From: an uncultured Aquimonas sp.
Lineage (GTDB): Bacteria > Pseudomonadota > Gammaproteobacteria > Xanthomonadales > Xanthomonadaceae
DNA: 22,899 nucleotides
NCBI GenBank assembly: GCA_946481615.1
Contig: CAMLOR010000029.1
Location: forward strand, 1 to 22,899
Direction of reading: 5' to 3'
Under the pieces are notes generated by a model that saw only the letters and a list, made by a program, of their open reading frames with translations, ran no database searches and had not been told where the DNA came from. The position numbers and the translations under genes are program-made. Position 1 is the first letter of the stretch, and each line of letters starts with the position of its first letter. This document shows positions 1 through 22,899 of this stretch, piece by piece.

Positions 1-1384
1 ATTCGCCGCGCGCCGCGGCTTCGGCCGCGGCGATGGCGATCAGGCCCTGGCCGCACGAAGCGTGTCCGCTGTCGGCGACGAGCGCGCGTGCGGCATCCAC
101 GCGCGCCGCGGCGCTTTCGCCCGACTGCAGCGTGCCGCTCACCGCGCGCGAAATGCCGACGTAGACCAGCGCGGGATGATGCGCGAGCAGGAACTCGAAC
201 TGGCGGCGGAAATCGCCCGGCGGCGGCTGCGAGGTCTGCGGCAGCACGCTGGCGGTGCGCAGCTTCGCGTAGAACTCGGCAGGCGAGATCGACACCTTGT
301 CGAGGAAATCCTCCTCGCCGAAATTCACCCGCACCGGCACCATGTGGATGTCGAGCCGCTCGCACACCTCCTTCGGCAGATCGGCGCCGCTGTCGGTGAC
401 GATGGCCACGCCTTGCGCGCGCAGCGCCGTGCGGTGCTGCGCCAGCATGTCCTCGGCCTTGCGCGCGCCGACCTTGCCGAACGCGCCCGCCGCCACGAAC
501 AGCGCGCAGGGATCGGCCACGTGCGCATGCACGCGCACGCGGCGCTCGCTGCCGGCGATCACCAGGCTGCCGGCGCCGCCCGCGGCGAGCGCGTCGCGCA
601 GGGCATCGCGATCGATGTTTCCGGCTTCCACCAGGCATTCGGTGCACCAGCGCTGCGCCGGGTCGATGTCTTCGTGCAGATGCTGGCCGGCGAATTCGAT
701 GTCGCTTGCGGCCGGCGCCGGATCGCCCTGCGCACCCGTGGCGATGAAGGCTTCGATGCCTTCGAGCAGATCGACGAACCCTTGCGCGCCGGCATCGACG
801 ACACCGGCCTGGCGCAGCACGGCGAGTTGCTTCGGCGTGTCGGCCAGCGCCACGCGCGCCCGCTGCACCGCCTGTGCGAATCCCGCGCGCCAATCGCGCA
901 GGCCGAGCGCGGCTTGTTGCTGGAAGGCTTCCGCGAAAGCGCGGATCACGCTCAGGATGGTGCCCTCGCGCGGCTGCGCCAGTGCGCCGTGCGCCTGCTG
1001 CGCGCCGGCCAGCGCGGCACGCGCCAGCAACGCGGGCGTAAGTACGCGCGCCTCGCCCGCGACCTCGCCCGCGCCCTGCAGGAACTGCGCGAGGATCGCC
1101 CCGCTGTTGCCGCGCGCGCCGTCGATGGCATCGTCGGCCACCTGCCGCAGCAGTTCGCCGGCCGAACGTGTGCGCCGGCTGAGCGCGCCCGACAGCACGG
1201 TGCCCAGCGTGAAAGCGAGGTTGCTCCCCGTGTCGCCGTCGGGCACTGGGAACACGTTGATCTTGTTGAGTTGCTCGCGCTGGGCGACCACCCGGCGCAT
1301 GCCGGCGATCAGGGCGCGCCGCAGTGCGGGGGCGGTGATGCGCGCCGCGGGCAAGGCGACAGCGTCCGGAAGAGTGGCGGCCAT
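1..1384 (-). CDS. DAK (DhaL-like) / DegV fusion protein, 3' end outside window
   Basis: The first 461 codons are present and the C-terminus runs off the window edge. Residues ~20-210 form a DAK2/DhaL-like kinase-type domain with the nucleotide/metal motif DGDTGSN (49-55) and GARGNSGAI (89-97). Residues ~245-320 resemble the middle domain of FakA-type proteins. A DegV domain starts at ~325 (VAIVTDSGADLP, 326-337) and continues through TSQP (384-387) and GISRAVSGTLQS (410-421). By family knowledge, DegV proteins bind a fatty acid and FakA-like DAK proteins phosphorylate it. A single chain holding both suggests a self-contained cytoplasmic fatty-acid kinase or a related acyl-binding enzyme; that function is inferred. 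The ATG at 1384 is the first in-frame start before the DAK domain. There is no clear Shine-Dalgarno, but CACACT lies 7 nt upstream. It is divergent from the small exported gene at 1594. Confidence 0.9.
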   Translation of the reverse strand, partial: MAATLPDAVALPAARITAPALRRALIAGMRRVVAQREQLNKINVFPVPDGDTGSNLAFTLGTVLSGALSRRTRSAGELLRQVADDAIDGARGNSGAILAQFLQGAGEVAGEARVLTPALLARAALAGAQQAHGALAQPREGTILSVIRAFAEAFQQQAALGLRDWRAGFAQAVQRARVALADTPKQLAVLRQAGVVDAGAQGFVDLLEGIEAFIATGAQGDPAPAASDIEFAGQHLHEDIDPAQRWCTECLVEAGNIDRDALRDALAAGGAGSLVIAGSERRVRVHAHVADPCALFVAAGAFGKVGARKAEDMLAQHRTALRAQGVAIVTDSGADLPKEVCERLDIHMVPVRVNFGEEDFLDKVSISPAEFYAKLRTASVLPQTSQPPPGDFRRQFEFLLAHHPALVYVGISRAVSGTLQSGESAAARVDAARALVADSGHASCGQGLIAIAAAEAAARGE

Positions 1385-1509
1385 GCGCGGCAGTGTGTCG
1401 AAGCGGACGCATCGGCGTCTTGTTGCGGCGCAGCGAAGGGAACTTGCGGCCGTGCGACGAAACGAAGCCAGGGTCCGCCCCGCCGAATGCACGCCGGGGA
1501 GGGAGGGGC

Positions 1510-1515
1510 TAGACT
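1510..1515 (+). promoter_or_regulatory. possible -10 element TAGACT
   Basis: TAGACT lies 78 nt upstream of the ATG at 1594 and matches the TAGACT ahead of the gene at 7687 and the TAAACT boxes elsewhere in the window. No convincing -35 is visible at the expected spacing. A transcript from here would have a leader of about 70 nt containing the CCCGACCCGGGG mini-hairpin. Apart from this element and the hairpin I see nothing else in 1385-1593. Confidence 0.3.
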
Positions 1516-1575
1516 GGCAACGTAACCTTTCGGCACCCGCGTGCATCCAACTTTCGAGTGCCGGTTCAGGTCCGG

Positions 1576-1587
1576 CCCGACCCGGGG
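1576..1587 (+). repeat. leader mini-hairpin CCCGACCCGGGG (copy 1)
   Basis: CCCG-ACC-CGGG can fold with a small loop, and its terminal GGGG sits 6 nt before the ATG at 1594, so it also offers the ribosome-binding purines. Near-identical copies lie just upstream of the starts at 7687 and 20057. Confidence 0.4.
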
Positions 1588-1593
1588 ATTCCA

Positions 1594-1872
1594 ATGTCAC
1601 GCTTCCTGCTCGCCCTGCTGATGCTCGCAGCCACGGTTTCCGCCCAGGCCATCACGCCCTCGCGCCAGGATGCCGACGGCACCGGCGGCGGCAATTGCCC
1701 GGACGCCGAAGAAATCGCCCGCGCCGAGGACGCCGCCGCGCCCGCCGCCGCGCCGCCCGCCCCGGCCAAGACCACTGCGCCGCCCGCGCAGGCCAAGGAA
1801 GCCGCCCCGCTGGCGCCGCGCCCACGGGCCGGCGCGCGCTGGCACTCCTTCCTGCCGGGCATGTTCAAGTAA
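1594..1872 (+). CDS. small exported Ala/Pro-rich protein, unknown function
   Basis: This encodes 92 residues. The N-terminus MSRFLLALLMLAATVSAQA is a clear Sec signal peptide with a likely AxA-type cleavage site near residues 17-19. The mature part begins with a polar stretch (TPSRQDADGTGGG), has a single Cys in GGGNCPD, a low-complexity Ala/Pro/Lys linker (~45-75), and ends WHSFLPGMFK. The upstream in-frame ATG at 1558 was not chosen because it would put 12 charged residues ahead of the signal peptide, whereas the ATG at 1594 has GGGGA at a suitable distance. It is probably periplasmic. No domain is recognised. A strong inverted repeat follows at 1925, before mtfA. Confidence 0.65.
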   Translation: MSRFLLALLMLAATVSAQAITPSRQDADGTGGGNCPDAEEIARAEDAAAPAAAPPAPAKTTAPPAQAKEAAPLAPRPRAGARWHSFLPGMFK

Positions 1873-7484: not shown

Positions 7485-7633
7485 GCGGCCGGCCGTCGCG
7501 CGCCCATGCCGCTCGCCTGCAGCGTGCACGCGAATGGCATGTCGATGCCGCAGCCCGTGCGTTTCGCACCGAAGCTGGGAGATCGCTCACATTCGACCCC
7601 GGCACAGCGGCCCCGGCGGTAATCGTCTTTGGT

Positions 7634-7639
7634 TAGACT
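7634..7639 (+). promoter_or_regulatory. possible -10 element TAGACT for the beta-helix protein gene
   Basis: TTAGACT is the most AT-rich stretch upstream of the ATG at 7687 and matches the TAGACT at 1510. It would give a ~40-nt leader that contains the CCCCGACCCGGGG hairpin and a GGAGG site. No clear -35 is present. Confidence 0.35.
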
Positions 7640-7651
7640 CGCCCTTCCCCG

Positions 7652-7664
7652 CCCCGACCCGGGG
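7652..7664 (+). repeat. leader mini-hairpin CCCCGACCCGGGG (copy 2)
   Basis: This has a CCCCG/CGGGG stem with an ACC loop, 22 nt before the ATG at 7687 and 6 nt before the GGAGG ribosome-binding site. Twelve of 12 positions match copy 1, and 12 of 13 match copy 3 at 20028. Confidence 0.45.
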
Positions 7665-7686
7665 CACGCCGGAGGCCACGCGTCCC

Positions 7687-9399
7687 ATGCGACCCGTCCA
7701 CGCGCTTTCCTGCAGTTTCCTCGCCTTGCTGCCGGTTGCAGCCGGCGCCGCCACCATCGACGTGCCCTGCGACGTCGCCGATCTGAAAGCGGCGCTCGTC
7801 GCGGTCGAGACCAACCCCGACGCCGCGAACACCATCGCCCTGGCGGAAGGCTGTACCTACACGCTCACCACCGTCGACAACGAAGAAAACAACATGGTCG
7901 GCGCGAACGGCTTGCCGCGCGTGACCCGGCCGCAGACGCTGCTGATCGACGGCAACGGCGCCACCATCGAACGCAGCAGCGCCGCGCTCACGCCCGAGTT
8001 CCGCGTGCTGCAATTCGGCGTGCAGGGCGCGCCGCTGCCTGACGGCAATCTGCTGCTGACGATCCGCGAGCTGACGGTGAGCAACGGCCGCATCGCGACG
8101 GCGCTCGGGAGTCCGCCCTTCCGCAACGGCGGCGGCATGAACTTCCGCGGCGATCCGGGCGACGTGCTGGCGCTGGAGGACGTCACCTTCAGCGGCAACC
8201 ACGCCGATTCCGGCGGCGGCCTGGTCGCCGCCTCGTTCCAGGGCGGCATCGGCGCCAACCTGCAGGACGTGCGCTTCACCGGCAACTCGGCCTTCGTGTC
8301 GGGCGCGGGACTGCAGCTCGAACAGGCCACCGCCACGCTCGAGGGCCTGCTGGTCAGCGGCAACACGCTCAATCCCGACGGCAACTCGCCGAACAACGGC
8401 TGGACGTTGCCCTTCGAGCGCGGCGAAGGCGGCGCGGTGGGCATCGCGATCTTCATGAGTCCCACCCTGACGCTCACCGACTCGGTGATCGAGGACAACA
8501 CCGGCCGCGGCATCGGCGGCGGCGGCGTGGGCGTGATCGGCAGTTCGGGCAGCATCCGCAACACCCGCATCCGCAACAACAGCATCGCGCCCTACCTGCT
8601 GGGCGCGAGCGCCGGGCGCGGCGGCGACGGCGGCGGCCTAGTGGCGCTGGAAGGTTTCTTCACCGGCGTGACGCTCGACGTGGAAGGCAGCGCTATCCTG
8701 GGCAACAGCGCCACCGGCAAGGGCGGCGGCATCGCCATCGCCGGCAGTGCGACCGGCGGACCGACGTCGACGGTGCGCATCTTCAACACCACGGTCTCGG
8801 GCAACAGCGCGCAGGACTCGGCCGGCGGCATCGCCATCGGCGGCGCCGACACCCTGCTCGCCAACGTCACCGTCACCGGCAACACGGCGCGCTACGCGGG
8901 CGGCGTGGGCGTCGGGCATTACGACTACGATTCGCTGATGATGACCGACAAGGTCACGGTCGGCGTGGCGCGCTTCGTCAACACCATCATCGGCGGCAAC
9001 GACGCCACCGACGCCACGGTCGACACCGGCGACTGCGCCATCGAAGCCGGCACTGCGACCGATGGTGGCGGCGTGATGGAGAATCTCTTCAGCCTGGTGC
9101 AACTCGACGCGCCCGCCGCGCCGGTCGATCTGCGCTGCAGCGCCGTCTACCCCTTCGCGCTGGTCGCCGATCCGCTACTCGGGCCGCTGGCCGACAATGG
9201 CGGCCCCGATTTCAGCCACGAGCCGCTGACCGGCTCGCCCGTGCTCGACGCCGGCAGTACCGCCGCGCTGCCGCTCGATTTCACGCTCGATTTCGACCAG
9301 CGCGGCGCGGGCTTCCCGCGCGTGGTCGCCGCGGGCATCGACCTGGGCGCGATCGAGAAGCTCGTCATCGGGATCTTCGCCGACGGCTTCGAGGACTGA
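7687..9399 (+). CDS. secreted parallel beta-helix protein, choice-of-anchor Q type
   Basis: This encodes 570 residues from the ATG at 7687, with GGAGG 11 nt upstream. Residues 1-21 are a signal peptide (SFLALLPVAAGA). The body (~50-460) is a succession of short Gly/Asn-rich rungs of the type SGNxAxxxGGG typical of right-handed beta-helix (pectate-lyase-fold) surface proteins. The end carries the choice-of-anchor Q signature: DNGGPDFSHEPLTGSPVLDAG, then FDQRGAGFPRV and IDLGAIE. The final residues are IFADGFED, a short tail I associate with Lysobacterales exported proteins. No catalytic residues for polysaccharide cleavage were identified, so adhesin or surface display is as likely as enzyme. 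Its TGA directly abuts the reversed stop of the next gene (TGATCA). Confidence 0.85.
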   Translation: MRPVHALSCSFLALLPVAAGAATIDVPCDVADLKAALVAVETNPDAANTIALAEGCTYTLTTVDNEENNMVGANGLPRVTRPQTLLIDGNGATIERSSAALTPEFRVLQFGVQGAPLPDGNLLLTIRELTVSNGRIATALGSPPFRNGGGMNFRGDPGDVLALEDVTFSGNHADSGGGLVAASFQGGIGANLQDVRFTGNSAFVSGAGLQLEQATATLEGLLVSGNTLNPDGNSPNNGWTLPFERGEGGAVGIAIFMSPTLTLTDSVIEDNTGRGIGGGGVGVIGSSGSIRNTRIRNNSIAPYLLGASAGRGGDGGGLVALEGFFTGVTLDVEGSAILGNSATGKGGGIAIAGSATGGPTSTVRIFNTTVSGNSAQDSAGGIAIGGADTLLANVTVTGNTARYAGGVGVGHYDYDSLMMTDKVTVGVARFVNTIIGGNDATDATVDTGDCAIEAGTATDGGGVMENLFSLVQLDAPAAPVDLRCSAVYPFALVADPLLGPLADNGGPDFSHEPLTGSPVLDAGSTAALPLDFTLDFDQRGAGFPRVVAAGIDLGAIEKLVIGIFADGFED

Positions 9400-10695
9400 T
9401 CAGCCCTCGCGCCGCGCGGCGGCCAGCTGCGCGGCGGCGTTTTCCAGCGCCGCCGCGGTGTGCTCGCTGGTGACGAAGAAGCGCAGCCGCGCGGCCTGCT
9501 CGCCGACGGCCGGATACGTCACCGGCTGCACGTTGATGCCGCGTTCGAACAGCCGGTTCGACAACCGCACCGCTTCGATCGAACCGCCCACCATCGCCGG
9601 CACCACGGCATGGCCCTGGGCGGCGCCGGTGTCGATGCCGTGGGCATGCAGGGCCGCAAGGAAACGATGCGCGTTGTCGCGCAGGCGTGCCACGCGCCCG
9701 GGTTCGGCCTGCATCGTCTGCAATGCCGCGAGCGCCGCGGCGGCGAGCGGCGGCGAAAGCCCCACGCTGTAGACGAAGCCCGGCGCGGCGTAGCGCAGGT
9801 TCTCGATCAGCGCGCGTTCGCCGGCGATGTAGCCGCCGCAGGCCGCCAGCGTTTTGCTCAGCGTGCCCATCCAGATGTCGACGTCGCCGCCCGCCAGGCC
9901 GAAGTGTTCGCGCACGCCGCCGCCGTTGCTACCCAGCACACCGATCGAATGCGCTTCGTCCACCATCAGGAACACGCGATGCCGGCGCTTGAGCGCGACC
10001 AGCGCCGGCAGATCGGGCACATCGCCGTCCATGCTGTAGAGGCCTTCCACCACTACCAGCACGCGCTCGAAGCGCAGCCGCAGTTCGGCGAGCAACGCAT
10101 CGAGCGCCGCGACGTCGTTGTGCGGGAAGGCGCGGCGCGCGCAGCCGGCCAGCGCCAGGCCTTCGAGCACGCTGTTGTGGATCAGCGCATCGTGCAGCAC
10201 CAGATCGCGCGGGCCGAACAGATAACCCAGCGTGCTCACGTTGGTGGCGTGGCCGCTGACGAAGGCCAGGCAATCGTCGACCCCGTGCAGCTTCGCGAGC
10301 GCGGCTTCGAGTTCGCGCTGCACGGGACGCTCGCCGGCCACGTAGCGGCTGGACGAGGCCGACGTGCCGTAGCGGTCGATGGCCTCCTTCGCAGCCTGCG
10401 ACACGCGCGCATCGCCGCACAGGCCCAGATAGTTGTAGCTGGAAAAGTTGTCGTATCCGCGACCATCGATCACGGTGCGCGCGCCGCCGATGCCCTCGTG
10501 CATCCGGTAGTAGGGATTGTCGAGGCCGAGCCGAGCCGCGACGGCGCGCGGCACCTGCATGCGCTCGTAACCCGGATGACGATCGAAGCGGCAGAAAGCG
10601 TCGGGCACCGCCGGCGTCGGGCCGCCGGCAAGCTTGCGGTCGCGCACGCGCTCGATGAGACGGGCGCGTTCTTCCGGATCGAGCGGCGTGGTCAT
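9400..10695 (-). CDS. PLP-dependent alpha-oxoamine synthase, PKS off-loading enzyme
   Basis: This 431-residue fold-type I PLP enzyme belongs to the KBL/BioF/SPT/ALAS group. The family block NFSSYNYLGL is at 83-92 and GTSASSSRYVAGERP at 110-124. DEAHSIG holds D246 and H249 (cofactor contacts), and the Schiff-base lysine is K281 in GTLSKTLAACGG. These enzymes condense an amino acid with an acyl thioester, losing CO2, to give an alpha-aminoketone. Because the start codon overlaps the PKS stop (ATGA, 10692-10695), the acyl donor is most likely the PKS ACP, as for Fum8 or prodigiosin PigH, rather than a CoA ester. The N-terminal ~60 residues before the core are Arg/Glu-rich and could contact the PKS. 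BioF was considered but no biotin genes are near. The amino-acid partner is not predictable. Confidence 0.88.
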   Translation of the reverse strand: MTTPLDPEERARLIERVRDRKLAGGPTPAVPDAFCRFDRHPGYERMQVPRAVAARLGLDNPYYRMHEGIGGARTVIDGRGYDNFSSYNYLGLCGDARVSQAAKEAIDRYGTSASSSRYVAGERPVQRELEAALAKLHGVDDCLAFVSGHATNVSTLGYLFGPRDLVLHDALIHNSVLEGLALAGCARRAFPHNDVAALDALLAELRLRFERVLVVVEGLYSMDGDVPDLPALVALKRRHRVFLMVDEAHSIGVLGSNGGGVREHFGLAGGDVDIWMGTLSKTLAACGGYIAGERALIENLRYAAPGFVYSVGLSPPLAAAALAALQTMQAEPGRVARLRDNAHRFLAALHAHGIDTGAAQGHAVVPAMVGGSIEAVRLSNRLFERGINVQPVTYPAVGEQAARLRFFVTSEHTAAALENAAAQLAAARREG

Positions 10696-13600
10696 GCGGA
10701 CGCCGCCTCATCGTCATGCAGACGCCGCCGCGCATCGCCGGCGAGCAGCGCGGCGTGATCGGGCGCCAGGCTTTCGCCATGCTGGCGCGCCAGCTGCGCC
10801 ACCACCTCGCCGATGCCGTCGTGCGCGGCGGGCGGTCGGCGCAGCGCGTCGAGCAGGCAGGCGGCGATGCGCTCCACGGTCGGCGCATCGTGCAAGGCCA
10901 TCACCGGGAACGTGGTGCCGAAGCGCTGCTCCAGTGCGTAGGCCAGTTCCACCGCCATCAACGAGTCCATGCCGGCGTCGTGCAACGGGCGCGCCACCTC
11001 GATGCGTGCGGCGTCGAGGCAGAGGATGCGCGCGACTTCCTCGCGCACCTGCGCCACGGCCAGCGCCTGCGCCGCCTCGTCGGGAAGCTCCAGCAAGCGT
11101 TCCCGCAGATCGCCGCCGGGGGCGTCCGGCGCGGCCTCGCCACGCGCAGCTTCGAGCGCCGCGAAGCGCGTCGTGCCCGCAGCCGGCAGCATGCGTGAAA
11201 CCACCGGCCAATCGAAATCGGCCACCGTGCAGACGGTGTCGCCGCGCGCCAGCACTTCGCCGAGCCGCGCGAGCGCTTCGCCGCTCTGCAACGGCGGCGC
11301 GCCGAGCCGGCGCGCGGCGCCCTCGCGCAGCGCCTCGTTGCGCGCGAGGAAACCCGCATCGGCGATCGGTCCCCAGCCGACGCAGGTGGCCGGCAGACCT
11401 TCGGCGCGGCGACGGCGCGCCAGCGCCTCGAGTCCGCCGTTCGCCGCGACGTAACTGCCCTGCCCCGGGCTGCCGAACAGCGTGGTCACCGAGGAATACA
11501 GCACGAAGTTCCGCAGCGGCAGCCCGCGGGTGGCGGCGTGCAGGTTCCATGCGCCGCGGAGTTTGGGCCGCAGCACGTTCGCGAGGCGTGTGGCATCGAG
11601 ATCGACGAGCAATCCGTCGTCGATGACCATCGCCGCGTGCAGCACGCCGGTGAGGGGCGGCAACACATGGGCCGCGTTCTCGATCGCCTGTTGCAGCGCC
11701 GCGGCGTCGGCGACATCGCAGGCTTCGGCCAGCACCTGCACGCCCCGTGCAGCGAATTCGTCGAGGACTTCCGACCCGCCCGGCGTCTGCGCGCCGCGCC
11801 GCCCGAGCAGCAGCAGATGACGCACGCCGCGCGCCGCGAGCCAGCGCGCCGACGCCAGCCCGAAGCCGGCCAGCCCGCCGGTGACGAGCCAGCATTCGCC
11901 GGACTCCGGACGCCAGGTGGCAGGCGGCGCGGGAGCCACCTGCGGCGCCTGCGCCATCGATATCACGAGCTTGCCCAGATGCCGCGATTGCTGCATCGCG
12001 CGGAACGCCTGCGTCGCATCGGCGGCGGTGAACACGCGGCAAGGCAGCGGCGCGAAAACACCGTCGCGCAGGCGCGCCATCACTTCTTCGAAAGCCAGTG
12101 CGGCCCAGGCCGGGCGCGCCACGAGCAGGCGGTCGGCGTCGATGCCGAAGAAAGCTAGGTTGTCCTTGAACGGACGCTGCCCGAGCGGGGTGTCGGCGAA
12201 GAAATCGCGCTTGCCCAGTTCGAGGAAGCGCCCGAAGGGGCGCAGCAGCGCCAGACTGCGGCGCTGCGCTTCGCCCGCCAGCGAATTGAGCACGACGTCC
12301 ACGCCTTCGCCACCGGTCGCCTCGCGCACTTCGTCGGCGAAGGCGAGACTGCGCGAATCGAACACGTGGCGTGCGCCGAGCCGCCGCAGCAGTTCGCGTT
12401 TTTCCGTGGTGCCCGCCGTGGCGATGACTTCCGCGCCCAGATGCTGCGCGATCTGCAAGGCCGCCAACCCGACACCGCCTGCCGCGCCATGGATGAGCAC
12501 ACGCTCGCCCGGTTGCAGGCGCGCCAGCCCGTGCAGCGCATGCCACGCCGTCACGAAGGCGACCGGCACCGTGGCCGCGGCCTCGAACGTCCATCCGGCC
12601 GGCAGCGGCGCGACGGCTTGCGCGCGCGTCACCACGTGGCTGGCGAAGCAGGCGCCGCCGAAGCCGAGCACCGCGTCACCCACGGCGACGCCCTGTACGC
12701 CCGCGCCGATGCGCTCGACGATGCCCGCGAATTCGAGCCCGAGCGTGGCACCCGCGAAGCCGCCTTCCACCGCTTCCTCCGGCAACAGACCGAGCGCGTA
12801 CATCACGTCGCGGAAGTTGAGTCCGGCGGCGTGCACGCGCACTTCCACCTCGCCTTCGCCCGGCTCGCGCGGCGTGTCCTGCCGCCAGGTCAGATTGCGC
12901 AGCTGGCCGGGCATGTCGAAATCGAGCCGGAAACGCGCGGTGGAACGGGACGGCGGCTCGTATTGGAGCAGGCACGGCACGTGGCGCGCCTGTGGTGTCA
13001 GCTGGATTTCGTCGGCGCCGTCGGGATGCAGCAGTTCGTCGCGGAGGCGTTGCGCGACGGCATCGTTGTCTTCCGGAGTCGCGTTTTCGCTTTCCGCGCA
13101 TGCCACATCGATGCAGACGATGCGTAGCGTGGGGAATTCGTTGGCGGCCACACGCGCCAGGGCCCACGCCGCGCCCTGGCCGGGATGCGCGGAACCTGCA
13201 GTCCCGAAGGGTGCGCCGCCGCGTGTCACCCGCCACCAGCGCGGCGGTCGTGGTTGCGCCGCCAGCACCCGCAGGGTGGCGAGCGTGGAAGCGCTCGTGT
13301 GCTCCAGATCATCGGCCTCGTCGGTCCAGCCGCGCAGATCCACGATGTTTTCGGCCGCGTGAGCGTCGAGTATTTCGGCGAGGTTCGCGTGTTGGCCCGC
13401 GTGCTGCAGGAGCGTCTGCAAGCGTTGCGCGATGTCCGACGACACCGCATCGCGCAGCAACAGCCACGTGCCTGGCACCGTAGCCTGCAGTTCGGCCGGT
13501 TCGCAGGGACGGCGCGCGAGCACGAGATAGGCGCCTGCCGCGAAGCCCTGTGCGGCCGGCTCGATGATCGCCTGCACCGCTTCGAACCCCAGGCTTTCGA

Positions 13601-16600
13601 GCACGCCGCTCCAGGCTTCGGGCGAACGCAGCGGCGACACCGGCTCGCCCGAGGCATCGCCGTGCCACCACGCCGCATCGAGCCCGCCGACCAGATCCGC
13701 GCACCAATCCGGATGCCGCTCGGCCAGCAGCAGCACGCCACCCGGCGCCAGCCAACGCCGCGCCTGCGCCAGCACCGCCTGCGGCCGCGCCGTGGCGTGC
13801 ACGGCGTGCGACAACAGCACCAGATCGAACTGCGCGGGCAGCTCGCGTTCGCCGCCGAGCGTCCATTCGGCGGAGTCGAGCGTCGCCGGCACGACTCCCG
13901 CCGGAAGCGGCGGGAAGTCGCCCGCGCTGGCGAACACCGCGTCGACATCGTCGCCGCCCGGAAGCGCGTGCAACACGGAATCGCCGATGCCGAGCACGCT
14001 AAGGCGTCGACCCTTCGCGACACCCGCATGCGCGGCGCGCACGGCAGCCGCGAGTGCGCGAGCCGTTGCGGCACGCGCCGGATCGTCCATCACGCCTGAT
14101 TGCGCCAGCAGCGAAGGCTCCGGGCGATGCGGCGTCCCGCCCCAGAGCGCCGGCAATGCCGCGGCCGCGCGGGCCAAGCCCGCCAGCGTCGCCGCGCAAG
14201 CGGGAGCCTCGCGCCACAGTGTCCGCAACAACGTGTCGGCCGGCGGTGGCGCGCTTGGCTCGCCGTTCGTATCCCCGGCGTCGTGCGATGCAACGTCGAT
14301 GCCGAAGTCGCAGCTGGCATGGCCTTCCGCAGATTCGTGCGACGCCGCGTCGTCGAGCCAACCCGCATCACGCAGCCGCGCCAACGCCCAGCGCAGCGAC
14401 GGCGGCGCCAGCGGGTCGGCGCGCCGGCGCACCACGCCGGCGGCATGCACGGCTTGGTGCAGCAGCGACAATACGAGCGCTTCCAGCAGCGGTAGCGTTT
14501 CGCCGAACCAGGCGCGGCGTGCCGGCGTATCCGGCAATTCGGTGCGCAAAACCTCCGCAAGATCGATCGGTGCCAGCGCCGATTCGCACTGCTCGACGGG
14601 CAATGGCTGCCGTCGCGCGGCCAGATGCCAGATGGCGGTTCGATCGCGTTCGCGCGTACGCAGTGGCGCGGCTCGGAACCGGCAGCCGCGCGCGCGGCCG
14701 ACGAGTCTTCCGGAGGCATCGAGGAATTCGAAGTCTGCCAGCAGCGAGCGCCGCGTGCGGCCAAGCAGACGCATGCGGCACGAAGCGACGGGCGCCCGGG
14801 CGAAGCATTCGCAGGCCGCGACGCGCACCGGCAGCATGGCGTCGGCCTCGCCGCGTCCGATCTCGTCGCGGAACAGCGCGGAAATCGCCTGGAAGCAGGC
14901 GTCCTGCGCCGCCGGATGCAGGAGATAGCGCGCGTCCTGCACCGCTTCGGGCAACTCCAGGCGCGCTTCGAGCAGCCCATCGCCGACGCGCACCTCGTGC
15001 AGGCCGCCGAAAGCGGGGCCCGGCTCGACGCCCAGGCGCACCGCGAGGGCGCGCACGGTGTCGGCATCGAAACATTCGGCGCCTTCGCCGGGGTCCGGAA
15101 TGCAGGCTTCCGGTGCATCGTCCGGCATTTCGATCACGCGGCCGCTCGCATGCAGCGTCCAGGCGTCCTCCGACAGACGCCGGCGGCTCGATACCGTCCA
15201 GCGACCGTCCTGCGGCGCGAGTTCGAAGCGCACGAGCCGCGCCTGGCCTTCGTCGAACACCATCGGCGCATGGATGTCGAGGTTTTCGCAGGCCGCATGC
15301 CGGCCCGCGTGCCATTCGTGCGCCGCGGCCAGGGCCAGCTCGACGTAGGCCGTGCCCGGCAGCAGCACGCTGCCGCCCACGCGGTGATCGGCGAGCCACG
15401 GCAGCACCATCGCATCCAGCGTGTTCTCCCAGCCGGCCGCCAATTCCGACAGGCGCCAGCCGAGCAGAGAATGTACGCGGCGGCGTGCGGCCAGGCGATG
15501 CGACTCGCTGGTCGGCGCCTGCCAGTGGCGTTCGCGCTGCCAGGGATAGGCGGGCAAAGCGACCATCGGGACGCGATGCGTCTGCCTCGGCGTCGATTGC
15601 AGCGAATGCACGCGCAAGGCGGTGTCCTCGATGCGGCTTTCGCCGTCGTCTTCGCGGCGCAAGGTCGCCAGCACGCGCACGCGGCCCGCCGCGAGGCATT
15701 CGGTGAGATAGCGCTGCAGGATGCCGTGCGGGCCGATCTCCACGAACACGCGACAGCCGCGCGCGGCGAGCGTGGCGACCGCCTGGTCGAAGCGCACCGG
15801 TTCGCGCACGTTGCGCCACCAGTAGGCGGCGTCGAGTTCGTTGCCGACGCACTCGGCGCCGCTCACGCTGGAAACGAAGCGTGCCGCCTGCGCCGCCGCC
15901 GGAACGAGGCCGTCGAGATCGCGCGCCAGCGGCGCGGCGATCGGGTCCATGTGCCGGCTGTGGAAGGCGTAGTCGAGATCGAGCAGGCGGAAAAACCGCC
16001 CGTCCCGTTCGACGCGTTCGCGCACGCGCGCCAGATCGGCCGGCGCGCCGCTGAGCGTGACTTGCCCGGGGCTGTTCACGGCGGCCAGCGCGAGATCGCC
16101 GCCGAGTTCCTCGAGCAGGGCGCGAGCCGCGATTTCCGGCAACGCGGCCGCCGCCATGCGTCCCGCGCCGCGTGTCGTCGCCTGCGCCGCGCTGCGCGCG
16201 CACACCACGCGCGCGGCCTGCGCCAGATCGAGCGCGCCCGCGGCGCAGGCCGCGGCGATTTCGCCGACGCTGTGCCCCGTCACCGCATGCGGCGCCACGC
16301 CGCGATCGCGCAGCAGGCCGGTGATTGCGTACTGCATCGCGAACAGCATCGGCTGCGCGATCGCGGTGTCGTCCAGGCGCGCGGGCTCGGCCTGCAATTC
16401 GTCGATCGGCACGAATGCGAGGTGCGGACGCAGCGCGGCGTCGGCTTCGGCGAACCACGTACGGAAGCGCTCGCACTCGTCCCACAACCGGCGGCCCATG
16501 CCCGACCACTGCGCACCGTTGCCCGAATAGACGAAGGCGACGTGCGGATCGTCGTCGGGCAAGGCCTGTTCGAGGACGAGGCGCGGCGGCGACTCGCCGC

Positions 16601-18191
16601 GCGCGTGGCGCGCCAGCAGATCGGCCGCGCCGGACAGCGGCACCGCCAGGCGATGTTGCAGGCGGTCGCGCCGCCACCATGTCGCGGCTGCGGTCGCGCG
16701 CCCAGCTTCGAGCGGCGCGTCGCGCAGCCTCATCGCGTATTCGTGCGCCAGCGAGCGCAGCGCCGCCTCGCTGCGCGCCGACAGGATCAACGCAGGCGGC
16801 TCGGCGACCTCGCTTGCAGGCGATTCGATTCGGAGCGCATCCGCCACGCCGCGCGCTTCGCTGCACACGCCCGGCAGCACGGGCGCCTGCAGGATCGCAT
16901 GCGCATTGGCGCCACCGAATCCGAACGAATTCACCGCCGCACGCAGCGGCCGATCGGATGCCAACGGCAACGGCGCGACCGCCACGCGCAGATTGAGCGC
17001 GGCGAAATCGATGTGCGGATTGGGCGTGGCGAAGTGCAGCGAGGGCGGCAGCACGCCATGCTTCAGCGCGAGCACCGCCTTGAGCAGGCCGGCGAGGCCC
17101 GAAACGGGCTCCAGGTGCCCGAGGTTGGTCTTCACCGAGCCGATCGGCAGCGGCTGCTTGCGCGCACGGTAGACGCGCCCGAGCGCCGCGGCTTCCACCG
17201 GATCGCCGACTGGCGTGCCGGTGCCGTGCGCCTCGACGAAGTCGATGTCGTCCACCGCCAGCCTGGCGCGCGCGAGCACGCCCGCGAGCAGTTCGGCCTG
17301 CGCGTCGACGCTGGGGATGGTGAGGCCGGTCTTGCGTGCGCCGTCGGTGTTGACGCCGCTGGCGAGGATCAGTCCGTGGATCGGATCGCCGTCGGCCAGC
17401 GCATCGCGCGCGCGCTTGAGGAACAGCATCACGCCGCCTTCCGCGCGCACATAGCCATCGCCCGCGGCATCGAAGGCGCGGCAGCGGCCGGTGGCCGACA
17501 GCATCGAGGCCTTGGTGAACCCGACGAAGGAATACGGATGCAGCAGCAGGTTGACGGCGCCGACCAGCGCGCAGGGCGTCTCGCCCGCCCGCAGCAGCGC
17601 GCAGGCCTGGTGCAACGCCACCAGCGACGACGAACACGCCGTGTCCAGCGCGAGCGAAGGCCCGCGCAGATCGAGGAACCACGAGATGCGGTTGGCGACG
17701 AGACTCAGCGTATTGCCGGTCATCGCATGCGCGGTCATGTTGGCGAGGTCGTCCAGCCCGCGCATGCCGTTGTCCAGGCTCGACAGGCCCACATGCACGG
17801 AACAATCGGAGCCCGCCAGCGCCGACGGCCGCTGACCGGCGTCTTCCAGCGCCTCCCAGGCCAGTTCCAGCATCAGGCGTTGCTGCGGATCGAGCGCGGC
17901 CGCTTCGCGCGGCGAAATGCCGAAGAAGGCGGCGTCGAATTCCTCCAGCCCGGAAATCACGCCGGCCGCGAAGGTGATGCTGCGCCCGGGCTCGGCACGG
18001 CGCGGATGGCGCAGTTCGTCGATCGCCCACCGCTCGGGCGGCACCTCCGTGACCAGATCGCGTCCCTCGCGCAAGGCGGCCCAGAGCGCGTCGGCATCGC
18101 GCAGGTCGCCCGGCAGGCGAAAGGCGAGTCCGACGATGGCGACGGCGTCGGCCGGCACGTCGCCGGACTTCGGATCGGTGGTGGAACCCAT
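10692..18191 (-). CDS. iterative-type highly reducing type I polyketide synthase (KS-AT-DH-psiMT-ER-KR-ACP)
   Basis: A single 2499-residue multienzyme. KS (~16-435): DTACSSS with nucleophile C186, H322 in EAHGTGT, H359 in NLGHLEPVSG. AT (~550-845): GHSVG with S641 and YAFHS (741-745), more malonyl- than methylmalonyl-like. DH (~905-1175): H936 in HRVGGSVLLP and D1097 in HPAAQDACFQ. A methyltransferase-like region (~1330-1560) has lost the glycine-rich SAM motif (RLSVLGIGDSV, 1396-1406). ER (~1755-2078): HGAAGGVGLA (1901-1910). KR (~2098-2330): TGGLAGFG, K2210, S2234, Y2247, N2251, with VIDDG suggesting a B-type reductase. ACP (~2375-2450): phosphopantetheine site S2410 in GMDSLMAVEL. No thioesterase or reductase ends the chain; a ~50-residue tail follows. 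Domain order equals fungal highly reducing PKSs. The lone full module implies iteration and a saturated chain. TAAACT ends 6 nt before the ATG. Confidence 0.95.
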   Translation of the reverse strand: MGSTTDPKSGDVPADAVAIVGLAFRLPGDLRDADALWAALREGRDLVTEVPPERWAIDELRHPRRAEPGRSITFAAGVISGLEEFDAAFFGISPREAAALDPQQRLMLELAWEALEDAGQRPSALAGSDCSVHVGLSSLDNGMRGLDDLANMTAHAMTGNTLSLVANRISWFLDLRGPSLALDTACSSSLVALHQACALLRAGETPCALVGAVNLLLHPYSFVGFTKASMLSATGRCRAFDAAGDGYVRAEGGVMLFLKRARDALADGDPIHGLILASGVNTDGARKTGLTIPSVDAQAELLAGVLARARLAVDDIDFVEAHGTGTPVGDPVEAAALGRVYRARKQPLPIGSVKTNLGHLEPVSGLAGLLKAVLALKHGVLPPSLHFATPNPHIDFAALNLRVAVAPLPLASDRPLRAAVNSFGFGGANAHAILQAPVLPGVCSEARGVADALRIESPASEVAEPPALILSARSEAALRSLAHEYAMRLRDAPLEAGRATAAATWWRRDRLQHRLAVPLSGAADLLARHARGESPPRLVLEQALPDDDPHVAFVYSGNGAQWSGMGRRLWDECERFRTWFAEADAALRPHLAFVPIDELQAEPARLDDTAIAQPMLFAMQYAITGLLRDRGVAPHAVTGHSVGEIAAACAAGALDLAQAARVVCARSAAQATTRGAGRMAAAALPEIAARALLEELGGDLALAAVNSPGQVTLSGAPADLARVRERVERDGRFFRLLDLDYAFHSRHMDPIAAPLARDLDGLVPAAAQAARFVSSVSGAECVGNELDAAYWWRNVREPVRFDQAVATLAARGCRVFVEIGPHGILQRYLTECLAAGRVRVLATLRREDDGESRIEDTALRVHSLQSTPRQTHRVPMVALPAYPWQRERHWQAPTSESHRLAARRRVHSLLGWRLSELAAGWENTLDAMVLPWLADHRVGGSVLLPGTAYVELALAAAHEWHAGRHAACENLDIHAPMVFDEGQARLVRFELAPQDGRWTVSSRRRLSEDAWTLHASGRVIEMPDDAPEACIPDPGEGAECFDADTVRALAVRLGVEPGPAFGGLHEVRVGDGLLEARLELPEAVQDARYLLHPAAQDACFQAISALFRDEIGRGEADAMLPVRVAACECFARAPVASCRMRLLGRTRRSLLADFEFLDASGRLVGRARGCRFRAAPLRTRERDRTAIWHLAARRQPLPVEQCESALAPIDLAEVLRTELPDTPARRAWFGETLPLLEALVLSLLHQAVHAAGVVRRRADPLAPPSLRWALARLRDAGWLDDAASHESAEGHASCDFGIDVASHDAGDTNGEPSAPPPADTLLRTLWREAPACAATLAGLARAAAALPALWGGTPHRPEPSLLAQSGVMDDPARAATARALAAAVRAAHAGVAKGRRLSVLGIGDSVLHALPGGDDVDAVFASAGDFPPLPAGVVPATLDSAEWTLGGERELPAQFDLVLLSHAVHATARPQAVLAQARRWLAPGGVLLLAERHPDWCADLVGGLDAAWWHGDASGEPVSPLRSPEAWSGVLESLGFEAVQAIIEPAAQGFAAGAYLVLARRPCEPAELQATVPGTWLLLRDAVSSDIAQRLQTLLQHAGQHANLAEILDAHAAENIVDLRGWTDEADDLEHTSASTLATLRVLAAQPRPPRWWRVTRGGAPFGTAGSAHPGQGAAWALARVAANEFPTLRIVCIDVACAESENATPEDNDAVAQRLRDELLHPDGADEIQLTPQARHVPCLLQYEPPSRSTARFRLDFDMPGQLRNLTWRQDTPREPGEGEVEVRVHAAGLNFRDVMYALGLLPEEAVEGGFAGATLGLEFAGIVERIGAGVQGVAVGDAVLGFGGACFASHVVTRAQAVAPLPAGWTFEAAATVPVAFVTAWHALHGLARLQPGERVLIHGAAGGVGLAALQIAQHLGAEVIATAGTTEKRELLRRLGARHVFDSRSLAFADEVREATGGEGVDVVLNSLAGEAQRRSLALLRPFGRFLELGKRDFFADTPLGQRPFKDNLAFFGIDADRLLVARPAWAALAFEEVMARLRDGVFAPLPCRVFTAADATQAFRAMQQSRHLGKLVISMAQAPQVAPAPPATWRPESGECWLVTGGLAGFGLASARWLAARGVRHLLLLGRRGAQTPGGSEVLDEFAARGVQVLAEACDVADAAALQQAIENAAHVLPPLTGVLHAAMVIDDGLLVDLDATRLANVLRPKLRGAWNLHAATRGLPLRNFVLYSSVTTLFGSPGQGSYVAANGGLEALARRRRAEGLPATCVGWGPIADAGFLARNEALREGAARRLGAPPLQSGEALARLGEVLARGDTVCTVADFDWPVVSRMLPAAGTTRFAALEAARGEAAPDAPGGDLRERLLELPDEAAQALAVAQVREEVARILCLDAARIEVARPLHDAGMDSLMAVELAYALEQRFGTTFPVMALHDAPTVERIAACLLDALRRPPAAHDGIGEVVAQLARQHGESLAPDHAALLAGDARRRLHDDEAASA

Positions 18192-18227: not shown

Positions 18228-18253
18228 GCGCGTCCCGCCGCAGGATGCGCCCG

Positions 18254-19012
18254 ATGACCGATCTCGAACGCCAGGCCCTGGCCAAGACCTGGTTCTATCC
18301 GTTCCGACTGCCTTCGGGCGCCACGACGCCGACCTACGGCACGGGCGAGCTCGATGCCGTCCACCACACCCGCACGCAGATGCTCGATGCGGTGCTCGCG
18401 ACCGAGTTCGGCAGCGAACGTGGGGCGTTGTCGGCGGTCGATCTGGCCTGCCATCAGGGCTGGTTCTCGACGCATCTGGCGCAGTCGGGCTTCGGCAAGG
18501 TGACGGGCATCGATGCGCGGCCCGAGCACATCGGCGATGCGGCACTGATCCGCGACGCGTTGCAGCTGGGCGATCGCATCGAGCTGGTGCAACGCGACGT
18601 GCACGAGGTGACCGCGAAGGAATTCGGCACGCACGATCTGGTGCTGTGCTTCGGGCTGATCTATCACCTCGAGAACCCGGTCGGCGCGCTGCGCGTGGCG
18701 CGTACGCTGACGAAGAAGCTATGCCTGGTGGAAACCCAGGTCGTGCCGGGCCTCACCGGCTGGGTCGATTACGGCAGCTACCGGTTCGTACGCCCGCTCA
18801 AGGGCAGCTTCGGCATCATCGACGAGACCGGCGAGACGCACGGCCCGGAAGCTTCGACCACCGGCATTTGCCTCGTGCCGAGCGTGGAAGCGCTGGTGTG
18901 GATCATGGATCGCCTCGGCTTCAAGCGCGTCGAAGTACTGCCGGTGCCGGAAGACGGCTACGAGCAGCTCGTGCACCGCAAGCGCGTGATGGTGGCCGGC
19001 TGGGTCGACTGA
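18254..19012 (+). CDS. class I SAM-dependent methyltransferase
   Basis: This encodes 252 residues from the ATG at 18254, chosen because AGGA lies 8 nt upstream; an in-frame ATG at 18245 would add MRP. A Rossmann-type methyltransferase core spans ~58-165. Motif I is atypical, AVDLACHQGWFS (61-72), followed by VTGIDARPEHI (83-93), RDVHEVT (114-120) and the post-motif HDLVLCFGLIYHLENP (127-142). The YHLENP-type block recalls CmoB-like and related small-molecule or tRNA methyltransferases, but the fold does not fix the substrate. It is divergent from the PKS operon across a shared palindrome, so tailoring of the aminoketone product (N- or O-methylation) is possible but unproven. It ends 6 nt before the convergent GNAT gene stop. 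Confidence 0.82.
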   Translation: MTDLERQALAKTWFYPFRLPSGATTPTYGTGELDAVHHTRTQMLDAVLATEFGSERGALSAVDLACHQGWFSTHLAQSGFGKVTGIDARPEHIGDAALIRDALQLGDRIELVQRDVHEVTAKEFGTHDLVLCFGLIYHLENPVGALRVARTLTKKLCLVETQVVPGLTGWVDYGSYRFVRPLKGSFGIIDETGETHGPEASTTGICLVPSVEALVWIMDRLGFKRVEVLPVPEDGYEQLVHRKRVMVAGWVD

Positions 19013-21749: not shown

Positions 21750-22463
21750 TCAGGCACTTGCCTCGTCGAGCCCAGCGATCGCCGCGGGAATCGCAGCAGG
21801 CTGCGCCACCGTCACCACGCGTTCGTGGCCCGCGCCCAGCCCATGCTCGAGCTCGTGCGCCCAGGTCACGTGATACGGCAGGTGCACGCCCCAGCCGCCC
21901 AGCGCCACGACGGGCTCGATATCGGAGCGCAGTGAGTTGCCCACCATCGCGAAATGGCGCGCGTCGCTGCCGCATTCCTTCAGTACCCGCGCATAAGCGG
22001 CCGGGTGCTTTTCCGAGACGATTTCGATGCGCGTGAACAGATCGGCCAGCCCCGACGCCGCGATCTTGGCTTCCTGATGGAAGAGATCGCCCTTGGTGAT
22101 CAGCACCACGCGGTGGCGTGACGCCACCGCTTCCACCGCCTCGCGGATGCCGGGCAACAATTCCACCGGATGCTCCAGCACGCTCTTGCCAAGATGCAGG
22201 ATGCGATGCAGATCGGCCGCCGAGATCCGCTCGGCCGAAAGCTCGATCGCGGTCTCCAGCATCGACAGCGTCATGCCCTTGGCGCCGTAGCCGAAGATAC
22301 GCAGGTTGCGGCGCTCGGTGGCGAGCAGCGTGTCGTGCACGCGCGCGTCGGCCAGGTCGATGTAGCCGCCCACGATGCGCTCGAACTCGGCGTGCGCGGA
22401 CTGGTAATAGCCCTCGCTGTGCCAGAGCGTATCGTCGCCGTCGAAACCCACCAGATCGATCAT
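21750..22463 (-). CDS. HAD-superfamily hydrolase
   Basis: This encodes 237 residues from the ATG at 22463. HAD motif I is FDGDDTLW, with nucleophile D8 and acid/base D10; motif II is VLITKGD; the motif III lysine is in SEKHP; motif IV is [11 protein letters not shown] helical cap lies between motifs I and II (~20-100). It is likely a small-molecule phosphatase; the substrate is unknown. The ATG overlaps the exporter stop as ATGA, indicating one operon under the guanidine-responsive leader. An alternative in-frame ATG at 22472 would add MRA. TAAAAT ends 7 nt before the chosen ATG and could be an internal promoter. Confidence 0.88.
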
Positions 22464-22774
22464 GGCGCGCATTTTAATCCGACGATGCCCGCCACGATCA
22501 GCGCGATGCAGGCGATGCGCGCCGGCGAGGCCGAATCGCCGAACAAGGCCATGCCCAGGATCGCCGTGCCGACCGCGCCGATGCCGGTCCAGACCGCGTA
22601 GCCCGTGCCCACGGGAATCTCGCGCAGGCCCTGCGCCAGGCACCAGAAACTCACCGCCATCGCCGACAGCGTGAAGGCCGTCGGCCAGGGGCGGGAGAAT
22701 CCTTCGGTGTATTTCAGGCCGATCGCCCAGGCGATCTCGAGCAATCCGGCAACGAACAACCACATCCAGGCCAC
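22460..22774 (-). CDS. gdx: guanidinium exporter Gdx/SugE, SMR family
   Basis: This encodes 104 residues with four transmembrane helices. A GTG start at 22774 is preferred: GGAG (22784-22781) lies 6 nt upstream, and it places the essential proton/guanidinium-coupling glutamate at E13 ([16 protein letters not shown]), as in E. coli SugE/Gdx; the ATG at 22765 would leave 101 residues and a 15-nt spacing. The signature [17 protein letters not shown] distinguishes Gdx from drug-exporting EmrE-type members. It exchanges guanidinium for protons across the inner membrane as an antiparallel dimer. A guanidine-II-like riboswitch precedes it. Confidence 0.94.
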
Positions 22775-22787
22775 GGCGAACTCCAGC

Positions 22788-22833
22788 GGCCGCCGTCGGC
22801 CTTCGCGGTGCAACCGGCGGGTCGTCCCGCCGG
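22788..22833 (-). promoter_or_regulatory. guanidine-II (mini-ykkC) riboswitch
   Basis: On the minus strand two GC hairpins stand in tandem. P1 is CCGGCGGG-ACGA-CCCGCCGG (22833-22814) and P2 is GGCCG-ACGG-CGGCC (22801-22788), joined by a 12-nt linker. Paired hairpins each capped by an ACGR tetraloop define the mini-ykkC/guanidine-II class, and the next gene is a gdx/sugE exporter, its commonest target. P2 ends 3 nt before the GGAG ribosome-binding site, consistent with translational control. The element begins 11 nt after the stop of the upstream gene. Confidence 0.9.
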
Positions 22834-22844
22834 AGGGTTCGGAA

Positions 22845-22899
22845 TCAGTCCAGGTTGCGGCCGTGGAAGAGTTCTTCGATCTCGCGGCGCAGCTGCATC
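22845..22899 (-). CDS. C-terminal end of an unidentified protein
   Basis: Only the last 17 complete codons before the stop are inside the window: [17 protein letters not shown], stop TGA at 22847-22845. The reading frame leaves the window upstream, and the Met is probably internal. The composition is a charged amphipathic helix end. I do not recognise the family. It lies on the same strand as gdx, with the riboswitch between. Confidence 0.4.

Follow-up and report, generated by a model that had tools for sequence, protein, structure and literature searches.

In Pseudomonas fluorescens MYb115, the polyketide synthase (PKS) PfSgaA and the alpha-oxoamine synthase (AOS) PfSgaB yield C24, C26 and C28 sphinganines, which are lost if either gene is deleted, and PfSgaB is almost exclusively serine-specific; the same paper also describes a presumed ketoreductase, SgaC, at that locus, together with probable phosphoglycerol sphingolipids, and counts 6,101 homologous SgaAB clusters, dominantly from Burkholderia (PMC12134224; Peters et al., 2025). 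The word stem 'Xanthomon' does not occur in that paper. Here we analyse a PKS-AOS gene pair in DNA of an uncultured Aquimonas sp. of the Xanthomonadales (contig CAMLOR010000029.1; the whole stretch of 22.9 kb, about 71% G+C, is called the window below). Judged by its sequence, the pair belongs to the SgaA-SgaB / RkpA-RkpG kind of PKS-oxoamine synthase operon, and it adds a probable Xanthomonadales member to the known SgaAB-type pairs. Our overall explanation, to which we assign a probability of about 0.7, is that this is an operon of the SgaAB kind making a serine-derived sphingoid base, and that the likeliest general role of such operons is the anchoring of surface polysaccharide. What is new here is the tight co-occurrence of such pairs with ABC-transporter capsule genes.

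Older work on capsules describes genes that bear on this role. In the rhizobial literature, the products of rkp-1 help to make a specific lipid carrier (PMC4881576), elsewhere termed a lipid carrier or anchor, and the rkp-1 region is said to be chromosomal. In Burkholderia, a capsule cluster is described with wcbR as its type I PKS gene and wcbT at its end; one paper places wcbR in fatty-acid synthesis for capsule I, within an operon running from wcbT to manC (PMC7858667). The usual capsule anchor is phosphatidylglycerol, extended with 3-deoxy-D-manno-octulosonic acid (Kdo) by KpsS and KpsC (PMC11041684). Our literature search found no paper joining capsule and PKS-made sphingolipids, and the link is not made in the accessible parts of PMC9386255, PMC8895605, PMC2945791 and PMC12220298.

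Assignment of the oxoamine synthase

Both genes lie on the minus strand, the PKS first and the AOS after it, and their coordinates (Table 1) were exact on checking. An earlier note on this DNA, made from the sequence alone, had described a lone PKS without a thioesterase followed by an oxoamine synthase with a 4-nt ATGA overlap, and open reading frames (ORFs) and Pfam matches bear this out. The AOS matches Aminotran_1_2 (Pfam, 2.2e-50), and K281 is the lysine expected, as in the family, to bind pyridoxal 5'-phosphate (PLP). Its scores fall under the cut-offs of all 15 NCBIfam models listed, that for KBL among them (NF005394, 280 bits against a cut-off of 460). Among solved structures, the best matches are bacterial (214 bits) and human (200 bits) serine palmitoyltransferase (SPT), with fungal SphA at 83 bits; by this comparison, from which Fum8 itself was absent, the enzyme is not closer to the fungal PKS-linked AOS than to bacterial SPT.

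In a maximum-likelihood tree with a midpoint root, a single clade with 100/100 support unites the 45 PKS-family rows, which stand for 38 of the 80 loci described below, six plasmid enzymes and the window AOS; it includes Pseudomonas, Burkholderiaceae, Sinorhizobium and others. The reference enzymes stand apart from it in clades of their own, namely BioF (five rows, 95/88, one of which scores under the BioF cut-off), KBL (six rows, 100/100), SPT (nine rows, 97/98) and CqsA (six rows, 100/100); long branches were flagged for a single row each of BioF and CqsA and for the S. meliloti row, and SPT is placed beside CqsA. The window AOS is sister to two Burkholderiales loci (97/98) inside an 18-row branch (96/90). 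Pseudomonas, Bordetella, Achromobacter, Burkholderiaceae, Thiothrix and others fall in another branch (20 rows, 100/98). Two fused proteins, a Streptomyces KS-AT-ACP-AOS and a Planktothrix KS-AT-DH-ER-KR-ACP-AOS, lie outermost in the clade. A KS-AT-ACP-AOS fusion, with the AOS at the PKS C-terminus, was observed on a Streptomyces plasmid (L085:10311-15134).

Relatives and conservation of the pair

A protein search returned at least 7,999 AOS candidates, all with E ≤ 1e-20, and the organisms named among the best 120 of these matches are of Betaproteobacteria type. Loci were fetched by the AOS alone from one genome each for 84,980 species, and the 80 loci analysed here are the best 80 of at least 536 confirmed stretches. 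An ACP accompanies the AOS in 79 of the 80, and the whole set of KS, AT, DH, ER, KR and ACP is present in 62; of the 18 loci that lack part of the set, 17 run into the end of a contig, and the remaining one (L073) has no PKS. A possible start codon occurs in the same 4-nt PKS/AOS overlap in 38 of the 80 relatives. Over its full length, the window PKS is 40-54% identical to the 21 relatives listed, and PKS and AOS identities co-vary (Spearman 0.72; none of 300 permutations reached as high a value; 60 loci with the window). When 369 genomes sampled evenly by class were searched at an AOS threshold of E ≤ 1e-120, 11 of them (centre included) had such an AOS, and in eight of these a close PKS homologue adjoins it.

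Variants of the arrangement were seen among the relatives. In L073 (9827-21119), a Nitrospira metagenome-assembled genome, an SgaB-type AOS heads a capsule-export cluster with no PKS upstream, and this AOS may take its chains from ordinary fatty acid synthesis. L169:1591-13600 (genome G505) has a different PKS of 2,126 aa, KS-AT-MT-ER-KR-ACP by Pfam with a fuller methyltransferase match, followed by an SgaB-like AOS, a short-chain dehydrogenase/reductase (SDR), an MGDG-synthase-like glycosyltransferase and a fused GT2/fatty-acid-hydroxylase; it looks like a locus for a glycosylated, possibly branched and hydroxylated long-chain-base lipid. An annotated UDP-3-O-acyl-GlcNAc deacetylase (LpxC-like) lies between PKS and AOS in Caballeronia (L083:13000-13926) and Paraburkholderia (L084:12992-13906). 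A formyltransferase-like gene adjoins the AOS in ten loci (L031, L032, L043, L044, L051, L055, L058, L067, L068 and L075), the one member tested, from L044, being Formyl_trans_N; N-formylation of the long-chain base is possible in these loci.

Domain anatomy of the PKS

Pfam gives the PKS the order KS-AT-DH-(MT remnant)-ER-KR-ACP, with E-values of 2.3e-78 for the KS N-terminal domain, 1.2e-67 for AT, 1.1e-22 and 5.6e-18 for DH, 5.8e-24 for ER (ADH_zinc_N), 4.7e-57 for KR and 8.3e-16 for ACP. The following active-site residues and motifs are present: the KS cysteine, the AT motifs, the DH histidine and aspartate, the KR tyrosine and asparagine, and the ACP serine. We take the GHSVGE/YAFHS motifs of the AT to mean a malonyl-type domain. 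A thioesterase family is absent from the Pfam listing of the PKS, in which just 53 residues follow the ACP. Among solved structures the closest is mycocerosic acid synthase (905 bits), with fungal LovB at 554 bits.

The earlier note had listed a methyltransferase within this order; every other domain stands as described, and the MT is just a remnant. Three methyltransferase Pfam models align to it solely by their own second halves (starting at profile positions 59, 61 and 75), and the site of the loop that binds S-adenosylmethionine (SAM) reads VLGIGDS-VLH, with a deletion relative to the aligned relatives. A strict SAM-loop motif search found the motif in none of 60 PKSs, but it also missed two stand-alone methyltransferases and is not counted as evidence. 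The second-half matches and the degenerate loop disfavour an active C-methylating PKS, and on this reading of the sequence the methyltransferase region is probably inactive. Unmethylated chains would therefore be expected, in line with the sphinganines reported from the Pseudomonas relative.

Capsule genes near the relatives

Polysaccharide-export genes are the commonest conserved neighbours of the 80 loci. The neighbour representatives match the KpsM, ABC ATPase, BexC/CtrB/KpsE, Poly_export, Capsule_synth/KpsS, lipoteichoic acid (LTA)-synthase-like sulfatase and SDR families, with NCBIfam scores below the curated cut-offs, so that these are family and not equivalog assignments. We scored the neighbourhoods by tblastn with 19 reference proteins, covering five capsule families plus SDR and LTA-synthase-like proteins; the families were picked from the same loci, the capsule-positive L007, L014 and L046 supplied query proteins, and two Ferrovum loci are near-copies. 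On this test, at least one of the five capsule families lies near 53 of the 80 loci and at least two lie near 28; among the 56 loci with at least 5 kb of flank, 44 have capsule genes nearby. The same test found no capsule family near paralogous AOSs of the same genomes (0 of 20 regions, drawn from 31 AOS paralogues; four of the 20 surround BioF above cut-off). PF05159 is present in 25 of 30 pair-bearing genomes; at 19 of 31 pair-type AOSs, and at none of 31 paralogues, it is no more than 25 kb away, contig ends being able to hide neighbours of both alike. A ketoreductase and an LTA-synthase-like gene are both present in 13 of the 80 relatives.

The even sample supplied 10 further genomes unselected by neighbourhood, of which six contain PF05159, compared with two of 20 AOS-free genomes (Fisher p = 0.007, uncorrected for kinship; the controls are the first 20 AOS-free genomes listed). 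Capsule genes lie within about 10 kb of the pair in five of the seven loci with a close PKS; of the exceptions, one is on a 21.6-kb contig in a genome without PF05159, and the other has an SDR only nearby. The four AOS places without a close PKS show no capsule family nearby.

The capsule genes differ between two branches of the AOS tree. Ketoreductase, LTA-synthase-like and Capsule_synth genes are frequent in the 20-row branch. KpsS/KpsC-type genes were found at the four Pseudomonas loci and on the Pseudomonas plasmid examined; the plasmid is laid out as PKS, AOS, capsule proteins, LTA synthase, SDR, KpsF, KdsB and KdsA. Of the 17 rows that share a branch with the window, 14 have genes of the capsule families, chiefly those for export; in the three negatives (L001, L010 and L040) the sequence ends less than 2 kb from the AOS.

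The window around the pair

Table 1. Features of the gene pair and its immediate neighbours in the window.
Feature	Position	Strand	Basis
SgaA/RkpA-type iterative type I polyketide synthase, 2,499 aa	10692..18191	-	ORF, Pfam domains
Ketosynthase incl. C-terminal extension, residues 15-495	16707..18149	-	Pfam; DTACSSS, EAHGTGT
Acyltransferase, residues 553-865, GHSVGE/YAFHS	15597..16535	-	Pfam, motifs
Dehydratase, residues 907-1176, HxxxGxxxxP and DxxxQ	14664..15473	-	Pfam, alignment
Methyltransferase remnant, residues 1448-1540	13572..13850	-	Second-half Pfam matches, alignment
Enoylreductase, residues 1778-2077	11961..12860	-	Pfam
Ketoreductase, residues 2101-2277, active site YVAAN	11361..11891	-	Pfam, alignment
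Acyl carrier domain, residues 2381-2446, GMDSLMAV	10854..11051	-	Pfam, motif
ATGA overlap, PKS stop and AOS start	10692..10695	-	Sequence
SgaB/RkpG-type alpha-oxoamine synthase, 431 aa, predicted serine-using	9400..10695	-	Pfam, tree, PDB comparison
Codon of K281, expected PLP lysine	9853..9855	-	Invariant, 25-row alignment
SAM methyltransferase, divergent, 53 bp from PKS start	18245..19012	+	Pfam
Beta-helix protein with choice-of-anchor Q domain, convergent; stop abuts AOS stop	7534..9399	+	ORF, Pfam, NCBIfam

Beyond the SAM methyltransferase, whose link to the PKS-AOS pair is unproven, the upstream side of the PKS carries a GNAT, a TonB C-terminal protein, a HAD hydrolase and an SMR transporter. 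On the downstream side of the AOS, the beta-helix protein, which is probably unrelated to the pair, is followed by Dus, a DDAH/CtlX-like enzyme, a response regulator, a histidine kinase, an M90 peptidase and a DAK2-DegV protein. The two-component pair lies 4.4 kb past the AOS end, and no tie between these genes and the PKS-AOS pair was found. Named hits of the M90 peptidase, in Arenimonas (74%), Chiayiivirga (70%) and Xanthomonadaceae (two at 59%), point towards a Xanthomonadales-like host, as a lead from a single gene. No third conserved gene was seen at the window pair: none of the window ORFs falls among the 40 neighbour families listed for the relatives.

The ends of the window hold two further arrangements. 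At 2-1600 (minus strand) one ORF, cut by the window edge, joins DAK2, FakA-middle and DegV into a fused protein resembling a fatty-acid kinase. At 21750-22897 (minus strand) lie the genes of the HAD hydrolase and the small multidrug resistance (SMR) family transporter, which apparently overlap by a few bases if the HAD start is near 22463.

Proposed product and role

In the pathway that we propose, the PKS would iterate on malonyl units with full reduction in each round and carry on its ACP the resulting acyl chain, which would be long, saturated and unbranched. Because the PKS has no thioesterase, the PLP enzyme would unload this chain, by condensing it with L-serine and releasing CO2, to give a 3-ketosphinganine-type long-chain base, which an unlinked reductase would turn into sphinganine. 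In many relatives, the later steps would fall to products of a capsule locus. One branch has for this a ketoreductase (RkpH/SgaC), a phosphoglycerol transferase resembling LTA synthase, and proteins of the KpsS/KpsC type; the branch to which the window belongs has mainly KpsM/KpsT/KpsE-type and Wza-like export proteins. Phosphoglycerol-sphinganine, which resembles lyso-phosphatidylglycerol, would be a plausible primer for KpsS/KpsC, and the likeliest general role of the sphingoid lipid would be to prime or anchor an exported surface polysaccharide. The association with capsule genes, together with the older proposal of an rkp-1 lipid carrier, suggests a sphingoid lipid as a capsule anchor replacing phosphatidylglycerol.

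That the window pair itself makes a sphingoid base we hold with good confidence. A sphingoid-type product, which the earlier note had predicted, is the best prediction from the sequence and is what has been reported for PfSgaAB (PMC12134224); the same report puts out of date the note's statement that it knew of no described product for the compact two-gene form in this kind of bacterium. Our data give anatomy, kinship and neighbourhoods directly, and serine use and C24-C28 products were demonstrated by others in P. fluorescens only. For this organism, we infer chain length, serine use and end use, the last step without local support, because the window contains no capsule, ketoreductase or phosphoglycerol-transferase gene.

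Several observations weigh against serine use or against a role in surface polysaccharide. The best NCBIfam score of the AOS is for BioF (328 bits against a cut-off of 426), and the outermost rows of its clade include the Streptomyces KS-AT-ACP-AOS, which is laid out like RedL of prodiginine synthesis, a glycine-using enzyme. None of the five capsule families (KpsM/KpsT/KpsE, Wza-like and KpsS/KpsC types) occurs in the window, so we do not class it as an rkp/kps-type capsule locus; nor does the window contain a ketoreductase (RkpH/SgaC) or an LTA-synthase-like gene. Among the 56 relatives with at least 5 kb of flank, 12 have no capsule genes nearby. No SDR or LTA-synthase-like gene lies near the pair in any of the 17 other rows of the window's branch, and PF05159 was unmatched in the Leeia, Nitrosomonas and Alcaligenes draft genomes of that branch; KpsS/KpsC therefore probably have no part in these three, and the anchor chemistry may differ in the window's branch. 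Peters et al. connect the PfSgaAB lipid with host interaction, and the words 'capsul', 'kps', 'polysaccharide', 'rkp' and 'wcb' are absent from their paper (PMC12134224). For this organism, the anchoring or priming of a surface polysaccharide by the sphingoid lipid has, in our estimate, somewhat less than an even chance.

Free sphinganine or phosphoglycerol-sphinganine could instead serve in the membrane, or diffuse and act on the host, and be unconnected with polysaccharide. This would fit a window pair that, like the 12 relatives just mentioned, has no capsule genes beside it, and the products ascribed to PfSgaAB are free sphinganines and probable phosphoglycerol sphingolipids that alter nematode lipid metabolism (PMC12134224). 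Most well-flanked relatives nevertheless adjoin capsule genes while the AOS paralogues of the same genomes do not, the Pseudomonas loci and plasmid carry KpsS/KpsC-type genes, and three of the 12 negatives have an LTA-synthase-like gene nearby, two of them with PF05159 at 10-11 kb; we consider a purely free lipid unlikely, though a serious contender. A signal of the CAI-1/LAI-1 type, which the earlier note had suggested, would require that the AOS use glycine or alanine and form a long alpha-aminoketone or 1-deoxysphinganine. CqsA belongs to the same enzyme superfamily, a two-component pair lies downstream of the AOS, and the AOS clade includes the Streptomyces fusion, whose counterpart RedL uses glycine. 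But CqsA occupies its own distant clade and the AOS scores 146 bits against a CqsA cut-off of 428, the two-component genes are untied to the pair, and the characterised two-gene member is almost exclusively serine-specific (PMC12134224), so that a signal of this kind is not favoured and seems improbable.

A fumonisin- or sphingofungin-like toxin, that is an oxidised long-chain base, is more improbable still. The reaction logic is shared with fungal PKS and oxoamine synthases, but none of the window ORFs tested was recognised as an oxygenase, even though genes for a methyltransferase, a GNAT and an SMR transporter are close by, and the nearest solved relatives of both AOS and PKS are not fungal. 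As for the idea that the AOS is a housekeeping BioF or KBL and simply happens to neighbour a PKS, its one point of support is that BioF gives the best NCBIfam score; that score is under the cut-off, the overlap and the co-variation tie the AOS to the PKS, and all four genomes searched for BioF have a separate BioF above cut-off elsewhere. On the AOS tree and these separate BioF genes we reject this explanation. The earlier note, which had named beforehand a grouping of the PLP enzyme with true BioF or KBL as what would refute it, was right to set the enzyme apart from BioF and KBL: the AOS falls in a separate 100/100 clade, and its scores lie under both cut-offs.

Returning to the anchoring of surface polysaccharide, we tentatively extend it to a wider scheme, which we hold to be possible but somewhat doubtful. 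Across Proteobacteria, a PKS-derived sphingoid base, phosphoglycerol-capped or directly glycosylated, would replace the phosphatidylglycerol anchor of ABC-transporter-dependent capsules; RkpA-RkpG-RkpH-RkpI of the rhizobial K-antigen, WcbR-WcbT of the Burkholderia capsule and SgaA-SgaB-SgaC of Pseudomonas would belong to a single pathway, with phosphoglycerol-sphinganine as the rkp-1 lipid carrier, and in this xanthomonad the pair would act for a polysaccharide encoded elsewhere. If the sphingolipid and rkp-1 pathways are one, mass spectrometry of capsule termini could test which lipid the rkp-1 genes make, and sphingolipid-anchored capsules would be carried by many bacteria that are at present left out of the sphingolipid producers. 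The link from PKS sphingolipid to capsule anchor, stated nowhere in the literature found, is the part worth following; the older rhizobial capsule work proposes a lipid carrier from what looks like the same genes as SgaAB.

Comparison with known systems

Fum1/Fum8, SphA, PigH and the vitroprocine enzymes release their chains by decarboxylative condensation with an amino acid. The likeness to Fum1/Fum8 that the earlier note drew holds for function; in sequence, the closest solved structures are bacterial SPT and mycocerosic acid synthase, and our comparison with the fungal oxoamine synthases is with SphA (83 bits only). Bacterial and human SPT are the best solved relatives of the AOS, but proteobacterial SPTs form a clade separate from it, and classical SPT is not known to be PKS-fed. 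On a Planktothrix plasmid (L086:3602-11200), the same parts occur in a single 2,532-aa KS-AT-DH-ER-KR-ACP-AOS protein of the same AOS clade; unlike the window pair, its PKS and AOS are fused, and no capsule family that we sought lies nearby.

WcbT is, we presume, the oxoamine synthase of Burkholderia capsule I, and wcbR/wcbT resemble the window pair by their published description. For rkp-1, the comparison is with L081 (CP090106.1, S. meliloti), where an opposite-strand export protein is followed by PKS, AOS (4-nt overlap), SDR, a sulfatase/LTA-synthase-like ORF, a Capsule_synth protein and KpsF. This row resembles rkpA-rkpG-rkpH-rkpI-rkpJ of the Sinorhizobium K-antigen, the rkp names being assigned by gene order, whereas the window has the first two genes only, with an AOS 52% identical. 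L081 is labelled pSymB, is 3.7 Mb long and carries secD as well as the rkp-1-like region; it may be a mislabelled chromosome.

From PfSgaAB the window pair differs in that the published locus has SgaC, whereas the window has no ketoreductase, and in that the window AOS lies in a different branch of the tree from the Pseudomonas rows. In its make-up, the window pair is like PfSgaA-PfSgaB, a two-gene system of a single-module iterative PKS and an AOS, and four Pseudomonas relatives, which stand here for the MYb115 sequence itself, match it over the whole length of the PKS (40% identity) and still more closely in the AOS (57-60%).

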